64,000 nucleotides of DNA, taken from the NCBI GenBank assembly GCA_020852705.1, contig JADZAP010000001.1:1-64000 (forward strand), in the 5' to 3' direction. The notes beneath the pieces were generated by a model. That model did not search any database, was not told the origin of the DNA, and saw only the letters and a list, made by a program, of their open reading frames with translations. The translations under genes and the position numbers were made by a program. Positions 44,856 through 61,316 of this stretch are shown in pieces. The stretch comes from Ignavibacteria bacterium (lineage in GTDB: Bacteria; Bacteroidota; Ignavibacteria; Tepidaquicellales; OLB5). Each line of letters starts with the position of its first letter. The first letter of the stretch is position 1.

Positions 44856-45908
44856 ATGATCAAACTAAGAAAGAAACAACTCGCCGATGGCAGCGACAGC
44901 CTGTATTTAGATATTTACTTTGAAGGTAAAAGACATTGCCAGACTTTGAACCTGAGACTAACGAAAGATAAAGAAAACAATAAAGAAGTACTTAAACTTG
45001 CCAATAAGATCAGGGCAACAAAAGAACTTGAATATCAAAGTTACCAAAATGGATTCATTCCATCTTATAAAACAAAAATTAATTTTGTTGAATATTTTGA
45101 AAAAATGGCAAATGAAAGAGACAGAAAGAATTGTAAAGTTTACAAAAACACGCTCAATTATCTAAGAAAATATACAAAGTACACAATCCAGATTGGACAA
45201 ATCAATGAAAACTGGATAGCTGAATTCCAAAGATATATGCTTAAATACGTATCGCAAAATTCAGTCTGGGTTTATATGAATACTTTGAAAGCCGGAATTA
45301 ACAAAGCATACCGAGAAAAACTTATCCAGGTAAATCCATTGCACTACTTCAGGGAAAACGTTAAGAGGGTTGAAACCAAGAAAGAATTTTTAACAATCAA
45401 AGAAATTGAGACACTAAATAACACTAAATGTGGCAATGAGGATGTCAGAAGAGCCTTTTTATTTAGTTGTTTCACAGGGTTACGAATTTCGGATGTCAGA
45501 AATCTGGAATGGGAAGATGTAAAAGAGGATATGATAGATTTCAGGCAGAAAAAAACAAAAGGATATGAATATCTACCGCTTTCAAAAACTGCAGTAGATA
45601 TACTTAATTTTAATGACGGGAATATCCATAAACTAAGAACCGGGAAGATATTTGATCTGCTAAGCAAAGATTATGCTAATGTAATTGTAAAAGAATGGGT
45701 GAAAAGGGCAGGGATCACAAAGAAAATAACTTACCATAACAGTAGACATACTTTTGCAACTATGTTACTTTCTCAAGGAGTTGATATATTTACGGTAAGT
45801 AAATTATTAGGTCATTGTAATGTGCGGGTAACGCAGGTTTATGCAAAAATTATTGATTCTGTAAAAGAAGAGGCAGTTAACAAGCTACCTCAGCTCAAAT
45901 TTGCATAA
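44856..45908 (+). CDS. Bacteroidota-type tyrosine recombinase with arm-DNA-binding domain
   Basis: The 350-residue protein has an N-terminal arm-binding domain (IKLRKKQLADGSDSLYLDIYFEG), a SAM-like core-binding domain (about 70-165) and a catalytic domain with Arg in CFTGLRISDVRNLEW, HNSRH box, LLGHCN and nucleophile Tyr in TQVYAKI. This architecture is typical of integrases of Bacteroidota conjugative and mobilisable elements. A terminator follows directly. Confidence 0.92.
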   Translation: MIKLRKKQLADGSDSLYLDIYFEGKRHCQTLNLRLTKDKENNKEVLKLANKIRATKELEYQSYQNGFIPSYKTKINFVEYFEKMANERDRKNCKVYKNTLNYLRKYTKYTIQIGQINENWIAEFQRYMLKYVSQNSVWVYMNTLKAGINKAYREKLIQVNPLHYFRENVKRVETKKEFLTIKEIETLNNTKCGNEDVRRAFLFSCFTGLRISDVRNLEWEDVKEDMIDFRQKKTKGYEYLPLSKTAVDILNFNDGNIHKLRTGKIFDLLSKDYANVIVKEWVKRAGITKKITYHNSRHTFATMLLSQGVDIFTVSKLLGHCNVRVTQVYAKIIDSVKEEAVNKLPQLKFA

Positions 45909-47663: not shown

Positions 47664-48968
47664 TCATTTTTCTTCATTTATTACTGCTTTTACTTTGATA
47701 GCTGTTTCAGATTGAAATAAATCTGCATACTCTTCCTGACTGAGAAAGTCGGAACTGGCCAGTTCTTCCAGAAATAATTCATTATCATAATCCTCCAAAG
47801 CAATATCAAATTCATTATGTGAAATTCCTATATTCTTGACAAGATCAATTGGAAAAGGAAACTTTATATAGCTCAATATTTTATCTATTTGGGCACTCAT
47901 TATGGCACGATTGTCTCCAAAACTTAGTTGTTCTGGCATTTCTGGTGCATTATTCTTATAAAATTCAATCAATTCACCTTTAAAAGTTTTTCTACAATTG
48001 CTCAAACCTGTATCTAAGTCCTTTATCAAATCACTCACTGTATTTTTAAGCAAAATTTGGAATTTTGATATTTCACCAAAAATATAGCTTTTATCCTTTA
48101 ACTTCATGAGGTTCTTACTTTTGCACTTACTCTTATACAAATATTGATCTCTAAGCTCATTAATAGATGTTTCTATTTCCTTTATTTTTTTAAATGATTT
48201 ATATTTTTCAACATCATCAAAGATTTTGAGTTTACTTTCAATGTTTTCGATAATTTTTTTGTTCTTAAATGGTAAAGCTCCTTTCGGTAGTTTTAGTTTA
48301 ATACTTTGTATATTTGCACCTTCAAACTTGATATCTATAAATTGGAGTGTTCGGTTGATTACTTCTATCTGTCTTTTTAGGTCCGGTTCTACCGGGGGAA
48401 CATCTTTCAATGTTTGCTTAATGTGCTGCAATTTATGCTCTAATGGAGTTTCAAATTCATCAATCTTCAATATAGACATATTATCAAGCTGATTTAGCTC
48501 CTCCGCTTCGCTTATAGCCTCTTTTACAGCTTCATCCTTAACATAGCTTAGCATTTTGTCACCAAGTTCCCAGAACGAAGTAATTAGCTTTAATGCCAAC
48601 TGTTTATCAATGTGAATAACATTGTAACCTTCGGTATCATCTTTAAATATCCGGGGAACAGGAAACCAAATTATATTGAAACTGTGAATATCAGAAATAA
48701 AGGAAATCGTTTTTGCTTTTGCATCCAATAACGTTACATTTTTAGCATTTAGTAGTTCTTCAATAATGGAGAATTTGCTTACACCGTTATAATCATTATC
48801 TTCATCAACATTGCAAATAATGTTAACTTTTTTCGTTTTACTTCTATTTAGAAGCGCATTTCCAATAATCTCGTTAATGCCAGAACTGCAAAAGAATAAT
48901 TCATGTTCAGAATCTTCAATTAAACCTGCTATTTCAAAATCAGTTAGATTATTTACTGTTTTATTCAT
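47664..48968 (-). CDS. Unknown protein at the end of the defence locus (about 434 residues)
   Basis: Start 48968 is preferred because GGGAG lies 8 nt upstream; ATGs at 48977 and 48995 are alternatives. The first ~125 residues look like a phospholipase-D-like fold without clear HKD motifs (DFEIAGLIEDSEHELFFCSSG, VNIICNVDED, FNIIWFPVPRIF). The rest is helical with coiled-coil stretches and ends with an acidic region. It is the last gene of the leftward locus, which begins with hsdM. It may sense or act in defence, but no active site is seen. Confidence 0.6.
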   Translation of the reverse strand: MNKTVNNLTDFEIAGLIEDSEHELFFCSSGINEIIGNALLNRSKTKKVNIICNVDEDNDYNGVSKFSIIEELLNAKNVTLLDAKAKTISFISDIHSFNIIWFPVPRIFKDDTEGYNVIHIDKQLALKLITSFWELGDKMLSYVKDEAVKEAISEAEELNQLDNMSILKIDEFETPLEHKLQHIKQTLKDVPPVEPDLKRQIEVINRTLQFIDIKFEGANIQSIKLKLPKGALPFKNKKIIENIESKLKIFDDVEKYKSFKKIKEIETSINELRDQYLYKSKCKSKNLMKLKDKSYIFGEISKFQILLKNTVSDLIKDLDTGLSNCRKTFKGELIEFYKNNAPEMPEQLSFGDNRAIMSAQIDKILSYIKFPFPIDLVKNIGISHNEFDIALEDYDNELFLEELASSDFLSQEEYADLFQSETAIKVKAVINEEK

Positions 48969-48973
48969 ATTAT

Positions 48974-49270
48974 TCATTCTCCCAAATGATGCCACTCTTC
49001 TTCTTTCAATTCAAATAAAAATTTTGATATTTCTTCCAATTGGCCGTTACTTTCTGCCCATTCAATATGGTCAATGAAACGCAACACTTTTTGTATTTCA
49101 CTTGTTTCCCACCATGCAGCTAATATTAATGGTAATGCAGGTTCCCAACCGCCACCTTTTCTCTTTGTATTTTTTAATAACTGGTATAATTTATTCCATT
49201 CAGTAGGTATAGGACAAATCCTGTTGTTAGCTTTTACATATTCAAGCAATTTTGATTTTTCTGTATTCAA
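48974..49270 (-). CDS. Unknown small helical protein (98 residues)
   Basis: It is rich in Trp (WNKLYQLL, WEPALPLILAAWWETSE, IEWAESNG, EEWHHLGE), helical and soluble. This pattern resembles small proteins coupled to larger unknown partners in defence islands. It overlaps the upstream exported-protein gene by 4 nt and ends 5 bases before the favoured start of the next gene. Confidence 0.6.
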   Translation of the reverse strand: MNTEKSKLLEYVKANNRICPIPTEWNKLYQLLKNTKRKGGGWEPALPLILAAWWETSEIQKVLRFIDHIEWAESNGQLEEISKFLFELKEEEWHHLGE

Positions 49271-49791
49271 TTATCTTTGTAATATTCAAGTGCAAATTTA
49301 TCAATTAATTCGTTTGTTATACAGTATGAATCTGATTTTATCATTTCTAATGTCGGATTCATTAAATTTACATAATACAAGTCATGAAAGACTCTTACGG
49401 TTATTGGAGCATCAGTTTTTTTATCTGTAAAATCCCTGTATATTCTAAGTTCAATTCCGCCATAGTATATAACATCATTTACACTTTCATGATTTTGAAA
49501 GAAGTTATAAGAAAACCACAAAGTGAAAAATCCATCTGTACCAATCAAAAAGTAATTAGTTGATTCTATTTCCGGTATTTTATATTTTATTTTATCAGTT
49601 ATATATTTTAAATCAGGTAAATAAGATTTAAATCTCTCAGCTTCATCTGAATAATTTATGAATCCAGAATATATTTTAAGATCTTTCATTTCTTGTGAAT
49701 TTATTTCTTGAATATTTATCGACATAAGAATTGTTAGAAACAAAAGATAAGGATAAATCTTAGGTATTAACTTATTTAATATATTTTTCAT
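49267..49791 (-). CDS. Exported unknown protein, paralogue of the one at 54514-55020
   Basis: The 174-residue protein has a signal peptide (about 1-33, with a hydrophobic core LLFLTILMSI). The mature part shares YYGGIELRIYR and a C-terminal LIDKFALEYYKDN with the protein encoded at 54514-55020 (YYGNYELRVLR and LIEQFALDYRSSN). An envelope protein inside a restriction locus is unusual. Function unknown. Confidence 0.65.
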   Translation of the reverse strand: MKNILNKLIPKIYPYLLFLTILMSINIQEINSQEMKDLKIYSGFINYSDEAERFKSYLPDLKYITDKIKYKIPEIESTNYFLIGTDGFFTLWFSYNFFQNHESVNDVIYYGGIELRIYRDFTDKKTDAPITVRVFHDLYYVNLMNPTLEMIKSDSYCITNELIDKFALEYYKDN

Positions 49792-49976
49792 TTCTACAAA
49801 ATATTAATTCTGAATTTTCTTAATCTAACTGGGAGAATATCGTCTAAATTTTGTATATGTTCATTTTCAAGGTTAATTAAATTTAGATTATTGCTCTTAT
49901 ACAAATTCAGTTTTCTTTTCTCTCATCCGGTAGAAAAGGACCGTAATATTGTTCAAAAATATCTGGCATATCTCAG

Positions 49977-51158
49977 CTAATTATTCTGTTTTGAAAGCTG
50001 CTTAAACATCGCAAGAAATTCCAAAACTAAATAAAGTTTCTCAAGGTGAAGCCTAAATTCACTGATTTGCGTGATTATCCTTGAATGAACAAAATTGTTT
50101 CTATCCCGCCCAAGATGTTCCAATTCCTCAATAATTCTTTTTTCTTTTCGTAGATGATCCATCAACCCTTTATCAAATATACTTTCAGCATTTTCCACAT
50201 ATACAAGATTTTCCACAAAGCCAAAATAATGTATTATTTTATACAAATTAGAAATACTATTGATTACTTCAACATTATATCGGTTCTTTTTGATTAATGA
50301 AGCAGTATTTACGATAGATTTGTGATGGGTCGGAACTTTCATTGTTTTTGTTGTATGCAATATCTGTTCAGATATTACAACCAATTTATCTATATATCTT
50401 TCAACCAAATGTGGTACTTCACTTTCTATTGCTTTAACAAAAGGTAATAGAAAGCAACTTAGATCATAATTACTGGTATGGCTATCTACAATTTCTTTAT
50501 CAAAACTTGATATGAGATTTTCACCTGCAATTATTAGTTGCTGTGATTCTTTGCATAAATTTTCAAACCAAATTTGTTTCTTAATATTCTTATTCAAAGG
50601 ACTAATAGTCTTGATCATTAAATCATCTATTTCACCATAAACTCTGTTTTGGTCAAATTCAATATCTTCATCGTATGGTATTCCCGGGTTATCATATTCC
50701 TTTACGGTTAACACCCTGATTTTATCTATGTAAATGTCAATCTGTTTAAGAAATAATAGATACTCACCATTAGAATATGGTATATCGTATCTGATAATAT
50801 CCCATGCCATAAATTTCTGAATTTCATCAAAAACTCCATTTAATCTAAATTGATTAATCGAGGCCACAATACCCTTCAAGAATGAAGTGTATAATTCTTT
50901 ATTTTCTTTATTCTTCTTATTTCTAACTATGTTAAATAAATTTGAAGGGTTTGTAAAAAATTCTTTATTGTAAATGTATCCAATTGGTATAGCGTCTTCT
51001 ATAGGGATTTCTCCAGCTCCTTCATCAGATTCTGCATAAAATTCAAAAGTCAAAATTGCCTCAGCGTCTTGTAATCTATCAAGTATGTCAGTCTTTTTCA
51101 ACTCTTCATAAACTTTCAAGATCAGTTTAATATATTTCTGCTTAATTTCTATGTCCAT
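49977..51158 (-). CDS. Unknown protein with a HEPN-like C-terminal region (393 residues)
   Basis: The protein is helical and soluble. The C-terminal segment has R353-x4-H358 in GRDRNNFVHSRI, between two long helices, which is the arrangement of HEPN ribonucleases. Residues about 1-130 have strand-helix alternation of unknown type. It follows hsdR with a gap of about 130 bases and could be a separate abortive-infection RNase module. The RxxxxH assignment is pattern-based, so it may be a non-catalytic HEPN or a coincidence. Confidence 0.55.
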   Translation of the reverse strand: MDIEIKQKYIKLILKVYEELKKTDILDRLQDAEAILTFEFYAESDEGAGEIPIEDAIPIGYIYNKEFFTNPSNLFNIVRNKKNKENKELYTSFLKGIVASINQFRLNGVFDEIQKFMAWDIIRYDIPYSNGEYLLFLKQIDIYIDKIRVLTVKEYDNPGIPYDEDIEFDQNRVYGEIDDLMIKTISPLNKNIKKQIWFENLCKESQQLIIAGENLISSFDKEIVDSHTSNYDLSCFLLPFVKAIESEVPHLVERYIDKLVVISEQILHTTKTMKVPTHHKSIVNTASLIKKNRYNVEVINSISNLYKIIHYFGFVENLVYVENAESIFDKGLMDHLRKEKRIIEELEHLGRDRNNFVHSRIITQISEFRLHLEKLYLVLEFLAMFKQLSKQNN

Positions 51159-51285
51159 ATCAATTTATTATATGTGTTAGTAGAATACCAAAGCGAACAT
51201 AACGCCAAATTCAATGATTTTTGAATTGAAAGAAAGTTATTGAATAAGTTTCGTATAGATTTTGGTTTCATTTTAACGAGTACCT

Positions 51286-54200
51286 TTACTCATTCACCCA
51301 AAAATCTGCCATCAGTTCAGCCTGTTTCAATACCGTGTCAATTGCTTTTTGCTGCATATCCGGTGGATAGCCGTATTTACGTAATGTCCTGCTGACTAAG
51401 CGCATTAGATTTGCCCTGGCGCTTTCACGGATAGTCCAGTCAATGGTAGCATTACTGCGGACCTTATCAGCGATTTCGCGGGCTATATGCTTTAAAGTAT
51501 CATCACCAAGCACTTGTACAGCGCTCTCATTTACTTCAAGTGCATTGTAGAAGGCTACTTCATCGGTTGATAAGCCAAGTTTTTCACCCTTTTTATCAGC
51601 TTCCTTTACTTCTTTTGCAATATTAATAAGCTCCTGAATGATCTCAGCAGTTGATAACAGATTATTCTGGTATCGCTTGATTGATGCTTCAAGCATTTCA
51701 AGCAATGCCTTACCTTTTACAAGGTTTGTTTTAAGCCTGGACTTAATTTCATCATTAAGTATCTTCTTTAACAGTTCGAGTGCAAGGTTTTTATGCTTCA
51801 TACCCTGTATTTCAAGCATAAATTCTTCTGAAAGTATGGGTATTTCAGGTCGTTTTAAACCTGCAGCATCAAATATATCAACTACTTTTTCGGAGCTGAT
51901 CGCTTCATTTACAATCTGCTTAATGATGGATTCAAGATTTAAGTCTCTTTCACCGCTACCTGTACCGGTGAACTTCGTTAACCTGGCTTTTACTGCCTGA
52001 AAGAATGCAACCAGTTCTGTTATAGCTGCAGCTTCTGGTTTGGAAATTGATAGTGAAAAAGCCTGTGATAACAGAATGACTTCTTTAATGAATCTTTCCT
52101 TGCCATCATCTAAACCAAGGATATGTTCTTCTGATTGAAGGATGATGGATAGTTTATCACGGGATGAAGCTGTAAAAAATCTTTTGTAATCAAAAGCACT
52201 ATTGATATATGCGGAAGGTTCTTCAAGAAGGATATCGCCTTCGGATTTACACTTTTCTGAAAACATTTGCGTAACTACTTCCAGCTTTTCAAGCATAACA
52301 TCAACAGCCCTATCCAGATCTTCTGCAGGTTCACCCTTACCGCCGGAATCAGAATAAAATGATAGCGCTTTCTTCATATCTGTAGCAATGCCAAGATAAT
52401 CTACAATTAAGCCGCCGGGTTTATCCTGGAATACACGGTTCACCCTCGATATTGTCTGCATCAGGGTATGACCACGCATTGGCTTATCAATATACATTGT
52501 ATTCAAACAGGGTACATCAAAACCCGTAAGCCACATATCACGCACTATAACAATTTTTAAGCTATCTGAAGGGTCTTTCATCCTATCAGCAAGTGTTTTA
52601 CGCTGATTTTTTGTAGTGTGGTGTTTAGCCATTACCGGGCCATCAGAGCTAACTGCTGTCATAATAACTTTTATCGAACCTTCATTAAAATCATCGCTAT
52701 GCCATTCGGGTTTTATCTTAATTATCTCATTATACAGATCAACAGCAATTCTTCTGCTCATTGCAACAATCATTGCTTTGCCATCCATAGTTGCTCTTCG
52801 CTCTTCAAAATGTGTTACAATATCACTTGCAAGATTTTTCAATCTCTCTTTATTTCCAATAATAGCTTCGAGCTTTGACCATTTTGCTTTTGCTTTTTCA
52901 GCTTCAGAGAGTTCTTCACTTTCCTCAAGATCTTTATCAAACTCACCAATTAATCTTTTGCCTTCTTCATTCAGGTTTACTTTTGCAAGACGGCTTTCAT
53001 AATATATTTTTACTGTGGTTTTATCTGCAATTGATTGTGATATATCATAGATATCAACATACTTGCCAAATACAGCAGGGGTATTTACATCACTGCTTTC
53101 TATTGGTGTGCCGGTAAAACCAATGTATGTAGCATTGGGCAGCGCATCCCTGAGATATTTTGCAAAACCATAAGCAACACGCTTACCAACAACTTCTCCG
53201 GTTGATTTATCAACTATATCCTTATACTTTGCTTCAAAGCCGTATTGCGTTCTGTGAGCTTCATCAGCAATTACAACTATGTTTTGCCTGTCAGAAAGCT
53301 CATCGTATACTTCCTTTCCTTCATCAGGCCAGAATTTATGAATGGTAGTGAAAATTATCCCGCCGCTTGCAACTTTAAGCAGTTTTTTAATATCCTCACG
53401 GCTTTCCGCCTGGTGAGGTTCCTGTCTCAATAGCTGGGTTGAATTAGCGAAGGTATCAAATAACTGATCATCAAGATCGTTCCTATCGGTAATTACAACA
53501 ATTGTAGGATTATTGAGGCTTAAAACCAGCTTACCGGTAAAGAATACCATTGAAAGTGATTTTCCGCTGCCTGTGGTATGCCAAACAACTCCGCCTTTTC
53601 TATCACCTGAAGGTGATGCTGCCGTAATAGTTTGTGTTACCGCTTTATTGACTGCATAATACTGATGATATGCTGCAAGTTTTTTAACTGTTATTACCTG
53701 TGTTATACCTGTTCCAGGATCTTCTTTTCTGGATTTTTCAAAAACAATAAAATTCCTGATTATATCAAGCAGGGCTTGCGGATTCAGCATTCCCTTTATA
53801 AGTGTTTCCATCTGAGGGATAAACCTTGAAGCATCTTTGCTGCCATCAATGCTCTTCCAGGGAACAAACCTGCCTTTACCTGCAGAAATACTGCCTGCTT
53901 TACACTCAATTCCATCAGATATTATGCATATTTCATTATATGTAAATAATGAAGGTATTACTGCTTTATATGTTTGTATCTGCTCAAATGCATGATCTAT
54001 GGTAGCATTTTCTTCTGCGGGGTTTTTAAGCTCCATTACAACCATAGGCAGCCCATTGATAAACAAAATTACATCAGGCCGTTTATTCTGGTTATTATGG
54101 AGTATTGTAAACTGGTTAACCGCAAGGAAATCATTGTTTAACGGATTATCAAAATCTACCAATGCAATTTCATGGCTTCTTTCAAAGCCATCCTGCTGGT

Positions 54201-54501
54201 ATGGAATCCTAACTTTTTCAACAAGAAGTACATGGAATGTTTCATTGTTATGCAGAAGGTCAGGCGAGTATATTCTTAAAACTTTTTGGACTGCCTGTTC
54301 CAGGGCATCAACCGGAATATGAGGGTTAATTTTGGTTACAGCGTTTCTTAACTTATCCGCCAAAACCACATCTTCAAACGATGTCCTTGCAGGATTTGAG
54401 CCTTCGGGGGATATATCCGGACCGTAGGCATAGTCCCACTCCAGCTTAGTAAGCTCTTCCAATGCAAACTCTTCGATATGTGATTCAGTGATTGGTTTCA
54501 C
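51286..54501 (-). CDS. hsdR: Type I restriction enzyme, R subunit (translocase and endonuclease)
   Basis: The 1071-residue length is typical. The N-terminal nuclease has RPDVILFINGLPMVVMELK with Asp143, Glu157 and Lys159. The SF2 motor follows with Walker A TTGSGKSLSM, DEAH in IADEAHRTQYG, TGTPI, and the MRGHTLMQTISRVNR motif VI. A helical C-terminal region binds the methylase. It cuts DNA at a distance after translocation when HsdM2S meets unmethylated sites. It is separated from hsdS by four cargo genes. Confidence 0.95.
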   Translation of the reverse strand: MKPITESHIEEFALEELTKLEWDYAYGPDISPEGSNPARTSFEDVVLADKLRNAVTKINPHIPVDALEQAVQKVLRIYSPDLLHNNETFHVLLVEKVRIPYQQDGFERSHEIALVDFDNPLNNDFLAVNQFTILHNNQNKRPDVILFINGLPMVVMELKNPAEENATIDHAFEQIQTYKAVIPSLFTYNEICIISDGIECKAGSISAGKGRFVPWKSIDGSKDASRFIPQMETLIKGMLNPQALLDIIRNFIVFEKSRKEDPGTGITQVITVKKLAAYHQYYAVNKAVTQTITAASPSGDRKGGVVWHTTGSGKSLSMVFFTGKLVLSLNNPTIVVITDRNDLDDQLFDTFANSTQLLRQEPHQAESREDIKKLLKVASGGIIFTTIHKFWPDEGKEVYDELSDRQNIVVIADEAHRTQYGFEAKYKDIVDKSTGEVVGKRVAYGFAKYLRDALPNATYIGFTGTPIESSDVNTPAVFGKYVDIYDISQSIADKTTVKIYYESRLAKVNLNEEGKRLIGEFDKDLEESEELSEAEKAKAKWSKLEAIIGNKERLKNLASDIVTHFEERRATMDGKAMIVAMSRRIAVDLYNEIIKIKPEWHSDDFNEGSIKVIMTAVSSDGPVMAKHHTTKNQRKTLADRMKDPSDSLKIVIVRDMWLTGFDVPCLNTMYIDKPMRGHTLMQTISRVNRVFQDKPGGLIVDYLGIATDMKKALSFYSDSGGKGEPAEDLDRAVDVMLEKLEVVTQMFSEKCKSEGDILLEEPSAYINSAFDYKRFFTASSRDKLSIILQSEEHILGLDDGKERFIKEVILLSQAFSLSISKPEAAAITELVAFFQAVKARLTKFTGTGSGERDLNLESIIKQIVNEAISSEKVVDIFDAAGLKRPEIPILSEEFMLEIQGMKHKNLALELLKKILNDEIKSRLKTNLVKGKALLEMLEASIKRYQNNLLSTAEIIQELINIAKEVKEADKKGEKLGLSTDEVAFYNALEVNESAVQVLGDDTLKHIAREIADKVRSNATIDWTIRESARANLMRLVSRTLRKYGYPPDMQQKAIDTVLKQAELMADFWVNE

Positions 54502-54513
54502 AATTATATAAAA

Positions 54514-55020
54514 TTAATTTGAAGACCTATAATCCAAAGCAAATTGTTCAATAAGGTTTGTTATAATTTCCTTAATTTCCTTTTTCCAGGCACTTTTAAT
54601 AGGAAAATTGTTTACGAATGAAGTATTTGATGAAAAAATTTCTGCATGTGGAATCGTATATAACTCAGAATTAGGAATATTCAAAACTCTTAAAACTCTT
54701 AATTCATAATTTCCATAATACTGTTCTTCTGAATATGGATTCTTATTTATTTGATAATTCACTTGTATAAAAATGGTTTTATTAATATCATTCCCAGTAT
54801 CATCATTTAATGCCTTCAATCCGGTTTTATATGCAATTATGTTCTTAATGTCTGATTCATTCATTAGAATATCTTTGAAATACTCTCCATCTTCTGAGTT
54901 ACTAACCATTAAATAAAATGCGTCTATACCATAATAATTTGTGGTTGTATATTTTATTTGAGAAATCGAAAGACTGCTGAAAACAATCAAAAATAATGTT
55001 AATACATTGAATTTTAACAT
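54514..55020 (-). CDS. Exported unknown protein inside the RM locus
   Basis: The 168-residue protein has a signal peptide (about 1-20, ending SLSIS). The mature part has YYGNYELRVLR near residue 110 and a C-terminal LIEQFALDYRSSN, matching the paralogue at 49267-49791. It lies 12 bases before hsdR and 1 base after the UDG-like gene, so it must be co-transcribed with them. Function unknown. Confidence 0.65.
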   Translation of the reverse strand: MLKFNVLTLFLIVFSSLSISQIKYTTTNYYGIDAFYLMVSNSEDGEYFKDILMNESDIKNIIAYKTGLKALNDDTGNDINKTIFIQVNYQINKNPYSEEQYYGNYELRVLRVLNIPNSELYTIPHAEIFSSNTSFVNNFPIKSAWKKEIKEIITNLIEQFALDYRSSN

Positions 55021-55021
55021 A

Positions 55022-55675
55022 TCAAAATTGCTTATTTTTTAAATATTCCAAATAGTTATTGAGATTTTTACCATAAAACTCTTTCCTTATGCTTGGCTGG
55101 TGGGGGAAGGGATATATATCCCGCTCAAGTTTATTATCTTTGGCTTGGCAGAAAGTAAAATTATTATCACATTTTCGGGTTTTGGAGTTGTAACTCCAAA
55201 AGTCTCTTACCTGGGCATTTTCACCTGCTAATAGCTGCAATACAGGCAAACCTAAAGCAATAATTGGAACCTTAGGATATGCTGCCAATTCCTCTTTCAA
55301 TAATTCAAGGTTTGCAGGTAAATGTGAGTGCAGCACACAAATTGTACGTTCAGGCGGATGTGTATAAAAATACTTAAATACATTGGTTGCATAAATATTT
55401 TCAAAACTTATGCCAATTGAGCTGCAAATAGAACTTATGTATGCTTTTAATGAGCCCGCTTTATCCAAGTTTAAAGTATACTCAATTGACTCTCTGCTCT
55501 TTACGTTTTTAACAGTCGGGTCTTGTCCTAATACTATGAGCTTAATTTTATTAGTGATCCTGAAAGGTAGAACCGGTAATAGATTTATATCAATTGGATT
55601 TTCTTTGAAATCATTTTGTGATTTCAAAGAATTTCTGATTTCAAGTGATTTATTAAATATTTCAGTAATTTGCAA
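55022..55675 (-). CDS. Uracil-DNA-glycosylase superfamily protein
   Basis: The 217-residue protein has the UDG water-activating motif LIVLGQDPTVKN, a central NVFKYFYTHPPE, an IALGLPVLQLL strand-helix and a C-terminal FPHQPSIRKEFYG resembling the HPS-type leucine-intercalation loop. In the family these remove uracil or other bases from DNA. Tyr of GQDPY is replaced by Thr, as in several divergent UDG families. Its start overlaps the nuclease gene by 14 nt. In this operon it could excise modified bases from phage DNA. Confidence 0.72.
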   Translation of the reverse strand: MQITEIFNKSLEIRNSLKSQNDFKENPIDINLLPVLPFRITNKIKLIVLGQDPTVKNVKSRESIEYTLNLDKAGSLKAYISSICSSIGISFENIYATNVFKYFYTHPPERTICVLHSHLPANLELLKEELAAYPKVPIIALGLPVLQLLAGENAQVRDFWSYNSKTRKCDNNFTFCQAKDNKLERDIYPFPHQPSIRKEFYGKNLNNYLEYLKNKQF

Positions 55676-56714
55676 TTTTATTGAGTGTTTTAATGGGTGT
55701 TAATTTATATTCATTATCTAAAACATTGCTTGTGAAATTCATAAGATTGAAATAGCCTAAGAGTTTCAATTTTTTCTTTCGCTTTTCAAAATATTTATAT
55801 CGGATACCATTAGTAGCTACAAATTTTGTGCACTTGGGAAAATTTTTTGAATAAGAATTTATTTGATTGTGGGTAAAACTTAGCCCATTACCTAATTGTT
55901 TTATCTCAACAATTATATCAGGAGTAGTGTTGTAATCCCCATCAAATAATCTACGGAATAATGCAATATCTATATGATTATATTCAATTTTAATATTCGG
56001 CTCATTCCAGCCAAGGGTAAAAATAAGCGGCAATACTAAAAACGATACAATCTCGCTTTCTGATGTTTGCCAGTCATTTTTTTGGTAATTGTTAAATAGC
56101 TTAGTTATCTTTTCAATGGCTTTTGAAATTCTTGTAACCTTTTCCGAATTTTTGAAATATTCTTGTAGGTGAATTTTTAATTCGTTTTGTTTAATATTGA
56201 CAGTTTCAGGCAACTTTCTTTTAAGGAATGTTTTTTTAGAATATTCAAATTCTGTTTTATATATCTCTTTATAAACTACAGGATTGTTACAGCCTGATAG
56301 AGTACTTTGGCTTAATGGTGTATTATTAAATTGAATAACTTTATTTTTTGTTTTAGGTCTATACCATTTCACTCTTACAAAATGTTGAAGATCCCAACCA
56401 TCAACATCCTGGAAACAGTTTGAGTAATTATATTCTGATAGAACTTTTCCTATTGCTAAAATTAACCTTGATCCTTTTCGAGCTATTAACCATTGACCTT
56501 TTTTTACATTTTTTAAAACTGCACCCCAATTTTTCCAAGTTGGATTATTTTTATAAAATTCAGTAGTAGAGATATCACCTTCTTTACCCGGTATTCCAGG
56601 GCCAACTAAAGCAACACCATATTTCAAGAATGTGTAAAAAAATGATCTGGTATCATCACCTGTACCAATTTGCCATGTATTTTTTGAATTTAAAATTTCC
56701 TTAGTAAACTTCAT
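55662..56714 (-). CDS. EVE/PUA-like plus HsdR_N-like nuclease fusion
   Basis: The 350-residue protein has an N-terminal half (about 10-125, WQIGTGDDTRSFFYTFL, KKGQWLIARKGSRLILAIGKVL, VRVKWYRP) that resembles EVE/PUA-type modified-base readers. Residues about 205-310 look like an HsdR_N/PD-(D/E)XK nuclease: SFLVLPLIFTLGW, HIDIALF with Asp249, PDIIVEIKQLG with Glu270 and Lys272, and NQINSYSK. A reader plus nuclease is the layout of modification-dependent restriction enzymes. Both assignments are pattern-based. Confidence 0.65.
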   Translation of the reverse strand: MKFTKEILNSKNTWQIGTGDDTRSFFYTFLKYGVALVGPGIPGKEGDISTTEFYKNNPTWKNWGAVLKNVKKGQWLIARKGSRLILAIGKVLSEYNYSNCFQDVDGWDLQHFVRVKWYRPKTKNKVIQFNNTPLSQSTLSGCNNPVVYKEIYKTEFEYSKKTFLKRKLPETVNIKQNELKIHLQEYFKNSEKVTRISKAIEKITKLFNNYQKNDWQTSESEIVSFLVLPLIFTLGWNEPNIKIEYNHIDIALFRRLFDGDYNTTPDIIVEIKQLGNGLSFTHNQINSYSKNFPKCTKFVATNGIRYKYFEKRKKKLKLLGYFNLMNFTSNVLDNEYKLTPIKTLNKIANY

Positions 56715-56744
56715 TAATAAAAATCAGTTGAATTTATTATTTTC

Positions 56745-57164
56745 TCAAAAGCATTTATTCCAACTTGGTAATTTTCTAAACTTCTCAAAATACTCCTGAA
56801 GCAAAAAGGATTCAGTATATAATGGAATGTGCTTTACATTAGTATCAACTGTGACATACCATCTAAAAATTAACTTTGAAATATTTTGTTCCTTCATTTT
56901 TCTAATTAAAGACTTTTCGCCCGACAAATTCCATCTGGTATTTACAATCCGTGTTCTTAGTTTCTGACCTTTGAAATCATTCCTTATATTGTTAAATGTA
57001 CCTGCTTTACCTATATATAATAAATTTTTCACATTTAATGAGTTTTTATAAATTAAATACACTCCGGGCTCATTAACTACATCTTTGCTTACTTTAATTA
57101 ATTTGTATTTTATTTCAAGAATGAACTTTCCATTTAGTTTATATTCGTTCAAAATATTAAACAT
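56745..57164 (-). CDS. GIY-YIG nuclease-like protein
   Basis: The 139-residue protein has GVYLIYKNS, then LLYIGKAG 10 residues later, Arg in LRTRIVNTRW and Glu in YTESFLLQEYF with a final LPSWNK, all positions expected for GIY-YIG domains. The family cuts DNA in restriction, repair and mobile introns. It lies 2 bases after hsdS, so it belongs to the RM transcript. Confidence 0.75.
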   Translation of the reverse strand: MFNILNEYKLNGKFILEIKYKLIKVSKDVVNEPGVYLIYKNSLNVKNLLYIGKAGTFNNIRNDFKGQKLRTRIVNTRWNLSGEKSLIRKMKEQNISKLIFRWYVTVDTNVKHIPLYTESFLLQEYFEKFRKLPSWNKCF

Positions 57165-57166
57165 AT

Positions 57167-58402
57167 TTACCCCTCCATCCGCACTTCGCCGCTCATCAAC
57201 TTGGGTAAAAGTGTATCACGCAATTTGGTTAGTGTGCGGATTTGTACGTTATTCTTTTCTTTCTTATCGAATAATTGCTTTAAAACACTTTCACCATTCA
57301 TTAATTTATTTTTTTCAGGCATTTTAAAGGAAATATCACCGATTTCACCTAAACTTAAATTTGGTTGTACTGCATGAACGATTCTACTTTCAAAATCATT
57401 TACAACATCTCGGGACTTCAATAAATAGTATAAGAAATATGGACTGATAGAATCTTTGTTAACTCTTAACAAGGCTATCGCCTGATTTGTATTTGCTGGT
57501 AGAAATCTTTCTGTTACAATTGCAACTCTTCCTATAGTACCGGCAATTGTGATAATTACATCATTTGCTTCAATTTTAGATCTATTTAGTGCATTATGAG
57601 TTACATCATCGATAAATGCAAATTTGCTCTCTATCAAATCCCCAAGATCTGTAATTGATTCAGCCTTTAAAAAATTTATTCCTGTTTTAGTAAATTTAAA
57701 TCCTAATGTTGTTGGAGTCGTTCCTTTAGTAATTGTCTTACATACATCTCTTACTTTCACTTCTTCCCAACTCTCATCTGCTTCTTCAATAAACCATTGC
57801 CTAAATAGTGTTTCGGCTAATGCTTCAAGTGTTTTGTTTTGCCGGTGCAGCAGATCAATTTTATCATCAAGGCTGCTGAGGATATCAATAATTGATTCAG
57901 CTTCGGTTTGGTATTTTGGATATAATATCGGGAAATCTCGAAGAAAACTAAGAGTTAAATAAGGTTGACTTGTCCCACTTTTATTTGAGTCTAAAATAAA
58001 TTTACCAATTTTTGAATTTAGAAAATAATATAACCATAATGCCTTATGTTCATTGCCAGCTTTTAGAATGCCAACATTTTTGACCGCATAATCTATAATT
58101 TCATTTCTTTCTACATAACTAAATCCGCAATATTCACCAATCATACTAATAATTACGTCCCACTGGTCAACTTTACTTCTAAGATTTATTTTGTTAAAGT
58201 CATCTTCATTTATGAAATAAGCATTATCAAAATCAATATTTCTACCTTTAATATGTTTTGAAGTAATCAAATATTTACCAATATTTTGTTCTTTCGGACT
58301 GTCGTGAGTACCATCTGTTATTCTAATGCAAAATTTCAACGACGGAATCAATTGCCAACTTGAAGGTATTTTGCCGTATATAGTTTCTGTAAATTGATCC
58401 AT
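57167..58402 (-). CDS. hsdS: Type I restriction-modification specificity subunit S
   Basis: The 411-residue protein has two target-recognition domains, one from about residue 15 (WQLIPSLKFCIRITDGTHD) and one from about 215 (WEEVKVRDVCKTITKGTTP). The two are joined and ended by the conserved coiled helices (LLHRQNKTLEALAETLFRQWF and RTLTKLRDTLLPKLMSGEV). It chooses the bipartite DNA site for HsdM and HsdR. Confidence 0.93.
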   Translation of the reverse strand: MDQFTETIYGKIPSSWQLIPSLKFCIRITDGTHDSPKEQNIGKYLITSKHIKGRNIDFDNAYFINEDDFNKINLRSKVDQWDVIISMIGEYCGFSYVERNEIIDYAVKNVGILKAGNEHKALWLYYFLNSKIGKFILDSNKSGTSQPYLTLSFLRDFPILYPKYQTEAESIIDILSSLDDKIDLLHRQNKTLEALAETLFRQWFIEEADESWEEVKVRDVCKTITKGTTPTTLGFKFTKTGINFLKAESITDLGDLIESKFAFIDDVTHNALNRSKIEANDVIITIAGTIGRVAIVTERFLPANTNQAIALLRVNKDSISPYFLYYLLKSRDVVNDFESRIVHAVQPNLSLGEIGDISFKMPEKNKLMNGESVLKQLFDKKEKNNVQIRTLTKLRDTLLPKLMSGEVRMEG

Positions 58403-58454
58403 ATCATATTTACTTCAATTGTGCAACCAGTAGTTGCACAAATGAAAGTTGACT

Positions 58455-60035
58455 TTATAGTTTAATTTTAGCTAAATTTTCAGCTATTTTCTTATTTAAT
58501 TCTGATTCTTCTGCAATCTGTTTTTCAAGCTCTGTTTTTAGTGACGCAAACCGCCCTGCAAAGTTAAAATCATCTTCTTCATCCGGCAAACCAACATACC
58601 TGCCGGGTGTAAGCGCATAATTCAGGGCTTTTACTTCTTCAATAGTTGAGCTTTTGCATAAACCCGCAATATCATTATATTCATTCTCACCAGTCCGCCA
58701 GTTATGGAAAATTGCGGCTAAGTTAGTAATATCTTCATCAGTAAATGCAAGGTTTTTTCTGTTTATTAAATATCCGTGGTTACGGGCATCAATAAAAAGT
58801 ATTTCGCCTTTGCGCTTAGTTTTATTTCTTCTTAAAAACCAAAGGCAGGCAGGTATCTGTGTATTTAAAAACAGCTTCGCAGGAAGGTTAACAATACAAT
58901 CAACCAAATCGTTTTCAACTAATGCTTTTCTTATATCACCTTCACCGGTGGTATTGCTTGTAAGCGCACCTTTTGAGAGCACAAAGCCAGCCATACCGGT
59001 TGGGGCTAAATGATAAATAAAATGCTGTATCCATGCATAGTTTGCATTACCTGCAGGCGGTGTTAGCTTTTGCCCTAAAACGCTCCAACGGGCATCATCA
59101 CGCAGCAGCTCACCGCTCCAGTCGCTATCGTTAAACGGAGGGTTCGCAATAATGTAATCGGCTTTCAGGTCCTTGTGTGCATCATTTAAAAAGCTGCCTT
59201 CATTGTTCCATCTAACATTACTGCTATCAATACCACGGATTGCAAGGTTCATCTTGCATAAACGCCATGTGGTCTGGTTGCTTTCCTGCCCAAAGATAGA
59301 TATCCTGTCCTTGGGGTCTAACTCCAATCCTTTTTTGCCCGGTTTTTTGTAACGGTCTTTATGAGCTTCAACAAACTTTTCACTTTGCACAAACATTCCG
59401 CCAGAGCCACAGCAAGGATCAAACACCCTGCCTTCGTATGGCTCAAGCATTTCAACCAGCAGCTTTACAACACTTGCGGGAGTGTAGAACTGTCCGCCTT
59501 TTTTGCCTTCGGCAAGGGCAAACTCACCCAGGAAGTACTCAAACACTCTTCCAAGTATATCTTTACTTCTTGCTTCCATGGTACCCAATGTGGCAGTACC
59601 AAAAAGATCAATTAGCCCTCCAAGACTTGCCTTATCCAATTTTTCCTGTGCATACACTTTTGGTAATACACCTCTAAGGCTTTTGGGATTATCTTTTTCA
59701 ATCGCATCCATAGCATCATCTACATCTTTTCCAATCGTTGGTAATTTTGCCCTTCCCTGCAGCCAGCTCCATCTTGATGAAGGTGGAACATAAAATATTT
59801 TTTCTGCAGCATATTCGTTTTTATCCTCCGGGTCAGCGCCTTCGTAATTGCCTTTACCCTCAATTAACTTTGCATGAAGCTCTTCAAATGAATCGGAGAT
59901 ATATTTCAGGAAGATAAGACCAAGGACAACATGCTTGTATTCTGCAGCATCCATATTCTTGCGGAGCTTATCTGCGGCTTTCCACAGCTTCTTTTCGAGC
60001 GGCTCTTCTTTTATATCTTTTTGCTTTTTAGCCAT
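58455..60035 (-). CDS. hsdM: Type I restriction-modification DNA methyltransferase subunit M
   Basis: The 526-residue N6-adenine methylase has an N-terminal helical HsdM_N ([29 protein letters not shown]), SAM motif [14 protein letters not shown] and catalytic NPPFNDSDW. It modifies host DNA at the sites named by HsdS. It is the first gene of the leftward locus. The next gene starts 52 bases later. Confidence 0.95.
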
Positions 60036-60398: not shown

Positions 60399-60680
60399 AT
60401 GAGAAATAACGAATTAGCAGCGAAATTAGAAAAAATTGAGCAAATGCTTGCGAGCCAGGGAATAGTACTAATGACTTTTGATGATGCTGTAAAATATCTT
60501 AAAGTCAGCAGATCAACCTTATATAAGCTCGTTCATTTTAACAAAATCAAGTGCAGCAAGCCGAATGGTAAGCGGCTTTGGTTCTCAAAAACTGATTTGG
60601 ATTCATGGGCATTGAGCAAGACAAGTAAAACTGCGGATGAAATTGAAGCTGAGGCTATCAAAATGGTAAATTCTAAATAG
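60399..60680 (+). CDS. Helix-turn-helix (excisionase-type) DNA-binding protein
   Basis: The 93-residue protein has an N-terminal coiled helix (LAAKLEKIEQMLASQG). An HTH_17 domain follows: MTFDDAVKYLKVSRSTLYKLVHFNK, GKRLWFSKTDLDSWAL. This is the common Bacteroidota mobile-element HTH. It is divergent from hsdM and could regulate it or act in element excision. Confidence 0.85.
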   Translation: MRNNELAAKLEKIEQMLASQGIVLMTFDDAVKYLKVSRSTLYKLVHFNKIKCSKPNGKRLWFSKTDLDSWALSKTSKTADEIEAEAIKMVNSK

Positions 60681-60704
60681 AATAAGTATAAAGAGGGGCT
60701 ATTA

Positions 60705-61316
60705 ATGACGAAACGAATAAGCAGGTTAAATTCAAGAGAGCTATTAATGATGAGGAAATTTTTGATTTCCAGGGATGGCAATAAATGTAATATTTGCGGA
60801 AAGCCGGGAACTGCAAAGAAATTGATAGTTGACCATGTTGATAACGATTTCTTAAATAATGAAAAAGGTAATCTGCAATTATGCTGCCAGAGCTGCAATA
60901 TTAAGAAAAACCCACCGCATTGTTCAAAAAAAGATGTTGACAATTTCTCTCTCTCTATCTCTCTCTCCCCCATACCATCGGATTTGGATGATTCAAAATC
61001 ATATTTAAGTTCTGCACCGGATATAACACTTGAAAACTTTCCAATCTGGAAGAACCTTAGGAGTGAACCGCTATTTCAAAAGTGGCTGTGGGAGGAAATG
61101 ACCCGGAAGTTAACAATGGAAGTAGCGCAGGTAATTAATGATGGCGCTAACATAGCGAAATGTTCTTCTAAAACAACTACCGCGTACCTTGATAAACTTG
61201 TATATGAAACAGGTCCGTTTAAGGTCATTAAGGTACCAGAGACAGGATTAAGGATGCTGTGCTGGAAAGAGAAGCACTTTCCATTTAAAGAACAAGGTAA
61301 GAAATGGAGTGAATAA
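60705..61316 (+). CDS. HNH endonuclease family protein
   Basis: The 203-residue protein has an HNH zinc fold: CNICGKPG, then LIVDHVDND, GNLQLCCQSCNIKK, with two CxxC pairs and the catalytic His of VDHVD. The C-terminal ~100 residues are helical (FQKWLWEEMTRKL) and of unknown type. It follows the HTH gene by 24 bases, probably in one transcript. It may be a homing or packaging-type nuclease of the mobile element. Confidence 0.78.
   Translation: MTKRISRLNSRELLMMRKFLISRDGNKCNICGKPGTAKKLIVDHVDNDFLNNEKGNLQLCCQSCNIKKNPPHCSKKDVDNFSLSISLSPIPSDLDDSKSYLSSAPDITLENFPIWKNLRSEPLFQKWLWEEMTRKLTMEVAQVINDGANIAKCSSKTTTAYLDKLVYETGPFKVIKVPETGLRMLCWKEKHFPFKEQGKKWSE

Follow-up and report, generated by a model that had tools for sequence, protein, structure and literature searches.

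Why should a type I restriction-modification (RM) operon carry four further genes between those of its specificity and restriction subunits, and do these genes extend the range of DNA that the system attacks? The question is raised by a locus in the first 64,000 nucleotides of contig JADZAP010000001.1 (assembly GCA_020852705.1, Ignavibacteria bacterium), a stretch which as a whole is called the window here. An initial annotation, made from the letters alone, suggested that the four genes (P0001 to P0004, the cargo below) and the RM genes are combined to attack both unmodified DNA and DNA with modified bases. The reading that we prefer, at a probability of roughly 0.57, is that the window has a type I RM operon in an integrase-flanked swap site, carrying an embedded module against modified DNA. 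The new element here is a protein of the uracil-DNA glycosylase (UDG) superfamily, P0003, whose relatives are recurrent riders of type I RM operons.

Eleven minus-strand open reading frames (ORFs) lie where the initial annotation had put them (Table 1), in the order that it gave: hsdM, hsdS, the four cargo genes, then hsdR. HsdM, HsdS and HsdR are unambiguous by Pfam and PADLOC, and in NCBIfam HsdR alone is above the cut-off. The three are encoded together, HsdS has two target-recognition domains, and HsdR joins a nuclease to a SWI2/SNF2 motor; by sequence, the locus is a type I RM operon. The claimed compactness is confirmed as well. A gap of 52 bases separates hsdM from hsdS, the successive gaps from hsdS to hsdR are 2, 30, -14, 1 and 12 bases (the negative value being the overlap of P0002 with P0003), and 127 bases separate hsdR from the next gene. 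From this compact same-strand spacing it is fair to infer that hsdS to hsdR form a single transcript. Promoter-like sites (74, against 63.6 with a standard deviation of 7.7 in shuffled sequences) and terminator-like sites (6, against 8.0 with a standard deviation of 2.8) are at about shuffle level.

That P0003 belongs to the UDG superfamily is supported by sequence profiles. When a profile of 13 members (A6) was compared with PDB, the lowest E-values were 1e-5 (1ui0) and 4.4e-4 (4zbx), and the best 26 of 31 rows were UDGs or UdgX; four rows carry the title 'Phage SPO1 DNA polymerase-related protein', which the UdgX row 6ail also bears. With hhalign, the family profile matched the profile of family 4 UDGs from the host and its relatives at 95.6% probability (E 1.3e-8), and the GINPG-type profile at 1.7%. 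Seven of the 13 members match PF03167 at E<=0.1. The motifs of P0003 are GQDPT, IYATN and PHQPS; the host enzymes which we take, from their motif, to be family 4 have GEAPG and HPAALLRNP. P0003 does not pass as a family 4 UDG, as it has no GEAPG or HPA motif and reaches 12.2 against 125.3 bits with NCBIfam UDG_fam4. Neither is it the housekeeping UDG, a candidate that we rejected since the genome has two other UDG-superfamily genes. A PDB sequence search with P0003 by itself gave nothing relevant, P0003 and profile A3 have no relatives in viral contigs, and P0003 has none in plasmids.

The association of this family with type I systems also speaks for our reading. Profile A3 found 17 places in 16 of the 391 genomes of the class, and A6, applied to the order of G568, found 9 of 164 genomes, with G730, G753 and G787 as new strong ones. 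Besides the window and L041 there are 17 strong loci, and at seven of them (L078, L079, L081, L082, L086, L155 and L156) type I RM genes lie within 10 kb of the P0003 relative, where 0.12 would be expected by chance; the seven stood with broader hsd profiles. The binomial P of 1.9e-11 is only a guide, because its null (53 hsdS genes per 146.5 Mb) comes from 36 other genomes and because the loci do not represent independent lineages (one genus accounts for L017, L018 and L157). Left out of this count are the window itself, L041 (found through P0002 and therefore biased), the relic L093 and four weak matches, in G768, G130, G218 and G650 (L158 to L161), which are likely other UDGs with no hsd genes recognised beside them; with these four the count becomes 7/21. 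Several poor loci were kept among the 17: L157 (a 7 kb contig with a stop in the gene), L083 (a stop in the match), and L080, L084 and L156 (contig edges). As to position, L078 and L155 have the relative between hsdS and hsdR, L086 has it between hsdS and hsdM with overlaps of 1 and 4 bases, and L156 directly behind hsdS; in L079 it is on the opposite strand, beside the RM operon.

The second cargo gene, P0002, was described in the initial annotation as an EVE/PUA-like domain with an HsdR_N-like nuclease, and this is borne out by the predicted fold and by a match to HSDR_N_2, at 25.7 bits barely above the Pfam cut-off of 25. The AlphaFold model, built from a 31-sequence alignment, has a mean predicted local distance difference test (pLDDT) score of 90.8. 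Its residues 11-155 match PH1033 (Z 10.3, 115 aligned, 2.6 Å) and the restriction enzyme VcaM4I (Z 9.4, 125 aligned, 3.4 Å), both of which we take to be EVE proteins, as well as MJECL36 (Z 9.8) and YTH domains (up to Z 9.1). For residues 195-350 the matches are to the nuclease parts of DrdV (Z 10.9), HsdR 3h1t (Z 10.7) and BpuSI (Z 9.0). Foldseek gave a single match below 0.001, a YTH domain at 8.9e-4. The reader domain is assigned from this fold, as Pfam has no EVE match at E<=1, and PDB sequence searches with P0002 or its alignment gave nothing relevant. D249, E270 and K272 are invariant across the 31 alignment rows, as a PD-(D/E)XK site would predict. Judged by the model, P0002 is probably a modification-reader fold fused to a PD-(D/E)XK nuclease.

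Relatives of P0002 were sought in 84,980 species genomes with two peptide patterns, and the resulting 37 loci are not a census because the scan rests on those patterns. Three of them, L023, L041 and L058, have the relative in a type I operon, a number unchanged with broader hsd profiles; type I was the RM type labelled systematically at the relatives' loci. L023 has the order hsdM, YhcG, hsdS, P0002 relative (50% identity), HigB-like gene, helix-turn-helix (HTH)-peptidase gene and hsdR (70%). In whole-genome searches, relatives were found in 7/391 genomes of the class, window included, two being weak matches with stops; further relatives are in three distant plasmid records (one of which served as an alignment row) and one viral contig. 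At L024 the neighbours of the relative are a GmrSD_N gene and a type ISP system.

L041, from an uncultured member of Bacteroidota, is the sole recurrence of two cargo genes together. Its order is hsdR, hsdS, P0002 relative, P0003 relative, Schlafen/AlbA gene, hsdM and a further gene. The operon is not orthologous to that of the window, the alignment between the two HsdR proteins spanning no more than 48 residues, and its UDG, which has no plasmid relatives, falls in the other of the two P0003 clades; hence the pair is either old or was assembled twice.

The site of the locus adds to the picture. An integrase-like gene and the 126-aa gene after it recur at 88-91% in the congeners G004 and G007, the integrase-like homologues themselves (88-89%) flanking type I loci, and relatives of an excisionase-like gene, 46% and 38% identical, have the same relative place there. 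In all three genomes a type I locus is next to the integrase-like gene and is bounded by the excisionase-like gene; the RM locus thus sits in an integrative element or hotspot that the window shares with G004 and G007. The longest direct repeat near the integrase that could resemble an att site has 15 bases, which is of chance size. HsdM and HsdR of the window are 92% and 91% identical to those at the same site in G004, and HsdS is 39% identical. The G004 locus (L078) keeps P0003 at 84% with different other cargo: a 184-aa gene, a GmrSD_N gene (PADLOC NsnA), an AAA gene, a 272-aa gene and a DUF900 hydrolase. G007 (L146) has a distant type I system (HsdR 25%, HsdM 27%). One site in three congeners thus holds type I RM with three different modules that are likely directed at modified DNA, namely an EVE nuclease with a UDG, GmrSD with a UDG, and a DCD protein. 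This comparison covers three congeners out of a genus search that took in ten more genomes. Beside the type I system of G007, L146:6497-7833 holds the DCD-domain gene and an 81% homologue of P0007.

How does this compare with known systems? Campylobacter type I loci have R-linked genes, RloA to RloH; the window is like them in having variable genes between hsd genes, and unlike them in the gene families. For the published systems that follow, we draw on parts of the papers cited. TgvAB, from VPI-2 of Vibrio cholerae, was shown by experiment to be a type IV system that acts on hypermodified phages; its two genes lie within a type I cluster, at a position which the authors compare with the location of RloF between hsdR and hsdS, and Payne and colleagues are cited for embedded genes (PMC11411939). 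As in the window, a modification-dependent module lies inside a type I operon, and it is held to complement type I restriction against phages with modified DNA. TgvAB is GmrSD-like, whereas the window cargo has an EVE-PD-(D/E)XK nuclease and a UDG-superfamily protein; no GmrSD_N (DUF262) domain was found in that cargo by Pfam at E<=1, and the sister locus L078 has one. EVE-PD-(D/E)XK fusions, with the same domain plan as P0002, were predicted to act in type IV restriction. EVE and DCD genes were reported near type I RM, DCD being described as an EVE-like domain with ties to type I systems, and the same work contains the idea that unmodified and modified DNA could both be restricted by loci which combine EVE with type I genes (PMC7641849). 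In the parts that we draw on, the type I link is stated for PIN-GNAT-EVE and DCD proteins, and the main text does not contain the word glycosylase.

As to glycosylases, Brig1 excises alpha-glucosyl-hydroxymethylcytosine (PMC11078745) and Brig3 excises 5-hydroxymethylcytosine (PMC13160076); a Brig2 is named in the Brig papers. The Brig1 homologues, reported in the neighbourhood of BREX/Pgl, toxin-antitoxin, restriction and CRISPR-Cas genes, numbered 42 and came from Firmicutes, Proteobacteria, Actinobacteria, Cyanobacteria and Planctomycetota; the authors foresaw that the family would be larger (PMC11078745). Brig1 and Brig3 are like P0003 in being UDG-superfamily proteins in defence loci, a likeness by description and not by sequence comparison. 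Unlike the reported Brig1 homologues, the P0003 family was seen in the class of the window and on one Bacteroidota contig, and often in type I operons. A figure legend of systems predicted by DefensePredictor names UDG (PMC13092281). Among the papers listed by a search that mostly leaves out subscription journals, we found no title or abstract opening which says that UDG-superfamily genes recur as components of type I operons. Judging from the parts of these papers that we draw on, TgvAB already offers an example of a type I operon with an embedded module that targets modified DNA, and the UDG-superfamily rider is the new part.

On our reading, HsdMSR would, as its family suggests, mark self DNA by adenine methylation and cut unmarked DNA. 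P0002 would take up a flipped-out modified base in its EVE/YTH-like pocket and cleave close by through its PD-(D/E)XK domain, in the manner of a type IV enzyme, P0003 would excise a modified or foreign base of the phage DNA, in the way described for Brig1 and Brig3, and P0001 may add a further nuclease. The resulting abasic sites would block replication or be cut by other nucleases, so phages that evade HsdR through base modification would become targets of the cargo. Such modules would be exchanged as cassettes, with hsdM and hsdR staying in place. One may speculate further, with little confidence on our part, that proteins of the P0003 type constitute a new clade of glycosylases in phage defence that extend type I RM operons, that their abasic sites are turned into breaks by P0002, P0001 or HsdR, and that one transcript thereby covers unmodified and modified DNA.

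A number of observations weigh against a cooperating module, and many of them would suit the opposite idea, that P0001 to P0004 are independent defence genes which settled in a recombination-prone gap and share a promoter while being functionally unconnected both with HsdMSR and among themselves. The four-gene set sought between hsdS and hsdR was found nowhere else in the searched data, and we rejected a fixed set since no second copy was seen. P0001 and P0004 have no RM-linked relative in these data, and P0004 has none in plasmids. Our survey of HsdR orthologues took in 20 further loci, 19 of them assessable (hsdM and hsdR in view); same-strand ORFs besides hsdS lie between hsdM and hsdR at 18 of the 19, so that cargo as such is ordinary, and we rejected the idea that its presence in this gap is unusual in itself. 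None of these ORFs was recognised as an intact relative of P0001 to P0004. Among the P0002-family loci, type I genes were recognised at none of the other 34 of 37 in the fetched stretches, some of which end near the gene. P0003 relatives also stand beside IIG enzymes (L083, L087), ZacBC genes and a GmrSD_N gene (L089), and G004 has P0003 amid different genes; no type I genes were seen at L017, L018, L084, L085, L088 and L157, with an IIG-like gene about 7 kb away in L018. Three of the seven type I loci show partial hsd sets (no hsdR in view at L081 and L082, no hsdM at L156). On the UDG tree the type I label takes 3 changes and 172 of 500 shuffles were as low, i.e. it does not cluster beyond the shuffles. 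Linkage, moreover, need not mean cooperation, because restriction genes cluster in defence islands anyway. In our opinion independent passengers are nevertheless doubtful: the linkage of P0003 to type I genes is far above the density expectation, the packing is tight in several operons, and relatives of P0002 and P0003 are together again in the non-orthologous operon L041. The initial annotation had held that cargo found only here, or independent of RM genes elsewhere, would speak against it; this applies in part, to the full set, to P0001 and P0004 and to the 34 P0002-family loci, and parts of the set, P0002 and P0003, do recur. Its dual-target proposal therefore stands in part, with the fold of P0002, the recurrence of P0003, the L041 pair and the modules at the sister sites on one side, and on the other the uniqueness of the set in the searched data and the P0002 relatives, beside most of which no type I genes were recognised.

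The assignments of the two enzymes have difficulties of their own. P0003 matches Pfam UDG PF03167 at 2e-4 and 21.9 bits, below the cut-off of 24.3; the histidine motif, PHQPS, is an altered one and is not the same in both P0003 clades; and an AlphaFold model from two sequences reached a pLDDT of 39 and is unusable, so that of the UDG-fold claim the superfamily membership stands, and the fold assignment rests on sequence profiles. YTH domains bind N6-methyladenine, and type I methylases make marks of that kind. A P0002 that reads N6-methyladenine would endanger its host, therefore another base is the more likely target, and the YTH likeness conflicts with our reading. For P0003, it could be argued that it is a true uracil-DNA glycosylase, acting against uracil-containing phages or in the repair of restriction damage and not on hypermodified bases. 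Its nearest profile matches are indeed family 4 UDGs and UdgX, and its GQDPT resembles GQDP, presumably the family 1 UDG motif. We find this improbable, given that the genome already has two other UDG-superfamily genes, that the family occurs sporadically, in 16 of 391 genomes of the class, and is linked to restriction genes, unlike a repair gene, and that Brig1 and Brig3, as described, resemble UDGs yet prefer other bases (PMC11078745, PMC13160076). It is very improbable, in our view, that some of the cargo is an abortive-infection or toxin-antitoxin device guarding the RM locus against loss or anti-restriction proteins. The same gap in L023 holds the HigB-like gene (below the Pfam cut-off) and the HTH-peptidase gene, an Abi_C gene is in the gap of L155, and the exported P0004 and P0007 are ill-suited to a role in cutting DNA; against this, P0002 and P0003 are nucleic-acid enzymes by family, and Pfam, PADLOC and NCBIfam recognised no antitoxin-like partner in the window.

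If UDG-superfamily glycosylases are a recurrent second embedded weapon, base excision would regularly accompany one of the most widespread DNA-cutting defences. The P0003 family supplies about nineteen concrete genes, and the three sister loci amount to a natural experiment, with the same site, a type I RM system each time and a different likely modified-DNA module in each.

For the other two cargo genes the initial annotation fared less well. The motif set of a GIY-YIG nuclease (GVY, YIG, R, E, N) is complete in P0001 by eye, and no Pfam family matches at E<=1; a uvrC match in NCBIfam (0.034) is sub-threshold. In the 18 kb fetched for each of its weak relatives (27-34%), in G482 and G397, hsd genes were not recognised, and these two relatives have no Pfam GIY-YIG match at E<=0.05. 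P0001 has no relatives in viral contigs or plasmids, and a PDB sequence search gave nothing relevant. The claim that P0004 is exported has by-eye support in its signal-like start. P0004 is 25% identical to P0007 (pair E 4e-5), which makes the two distant paralogues; a weak P0004-like match in L056 (E 7e-4) was dropped, as a one-round search listed no P0004 relative. The four genes after hsdR have no informative family match in Pfam, PADLOC and NCBIfam scans, and their wider gaps are 127 and 185 bases; the link of P0006 to the RM operon is uncertain. P0006 and P0008 have no plasmid relatives, and P0012 has none in plasmids or phages.

Table 1. Features of the locus and its edges (positions in the window)
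Feature	Positions	Strand	Length (aa)	Assignment	Basis or remark
Integrase-like gene	44856..45908	+		near left edge of island	tyrosine-recombinase-like C-terminus by eye
P0008	47664..48995	-	443		no informative family
P0009	48974..49270	-	98		overlaps neighbours by 4 and 22 bases
P0007	49267..49791	-	174	exported protein, distant P0004 paralogue	81% identical gene in G007 island, same site
P0006	49977..51158	-	393	island gene, no known family	127-base gap after hsdR
hsdR	51286..54501	-	1071	restriction/translocase subunit	T1RH-like_C 6.3e-123, SWI2_SNF2 4.5e-77, HSDR_N 2.7e-49
P0004	54514..55020	-	168	small exported protein	signal-peptide-like N-terminus by eye
P0003	55022..55675	-	217	UDG-superfamily protein	sequence profiles; TTG start overlapping P0002
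P0002	55662..56714	-	350	EVE/YTH-like reader with PD-(D/E)XK nuclease (type IV-like)	HSDR_N_2, AlphaFold fold
P0001	56745..57164	-	139	possible GIY-YIG nuclease	motif by eye
hsdS	57167..58402	-	411	specificity subunit	Methylase_S 5.8e-21, two target-recognition stretches
hsdM	58455..60035	-	526	type I DNA methyltransferase	N6_Mtase 3.4e-105, HsdM_N 1.2e-28 (Pfam)
Excisionase-like HTH gene	60399..60680	+		right edge of variable part	HTH by eye

Some minor observations may be added. A P0003-type gene lies directly behind genes that PADLOC names ZacC and ZacB (L080:1-5629), the congener G006 has a 371-aa ORF with a P0003-type domain and no type I genes in view (L085:8856-9971), and a C-terminal relic of a P0003-type gene lies directly behind an hsdR with an in-frame stop (L093:17585-17827). 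Among P0002 relatives, one is directly behind the DISARM genes DrmA and DrmB (L052:3658-11008) and another has an HsdM-like methyltransferase (E 9e-17) two genes before it (L050:6058-8028). L098:5451-8082 and L099:5320-8030 each show a type I locus with three hsdS fragments and a 153-aa gene in their midst; the specificity locus may be undergoing shuffling or decay. On the side of the RM locus away from the integrase-like gene, excisionase-like and HNH-like genes are seen by eye at 60399-61316. Finally, one restriction island holds two distant paralogues of a small exported protein family, at 54514-55020 and 49267-49791.

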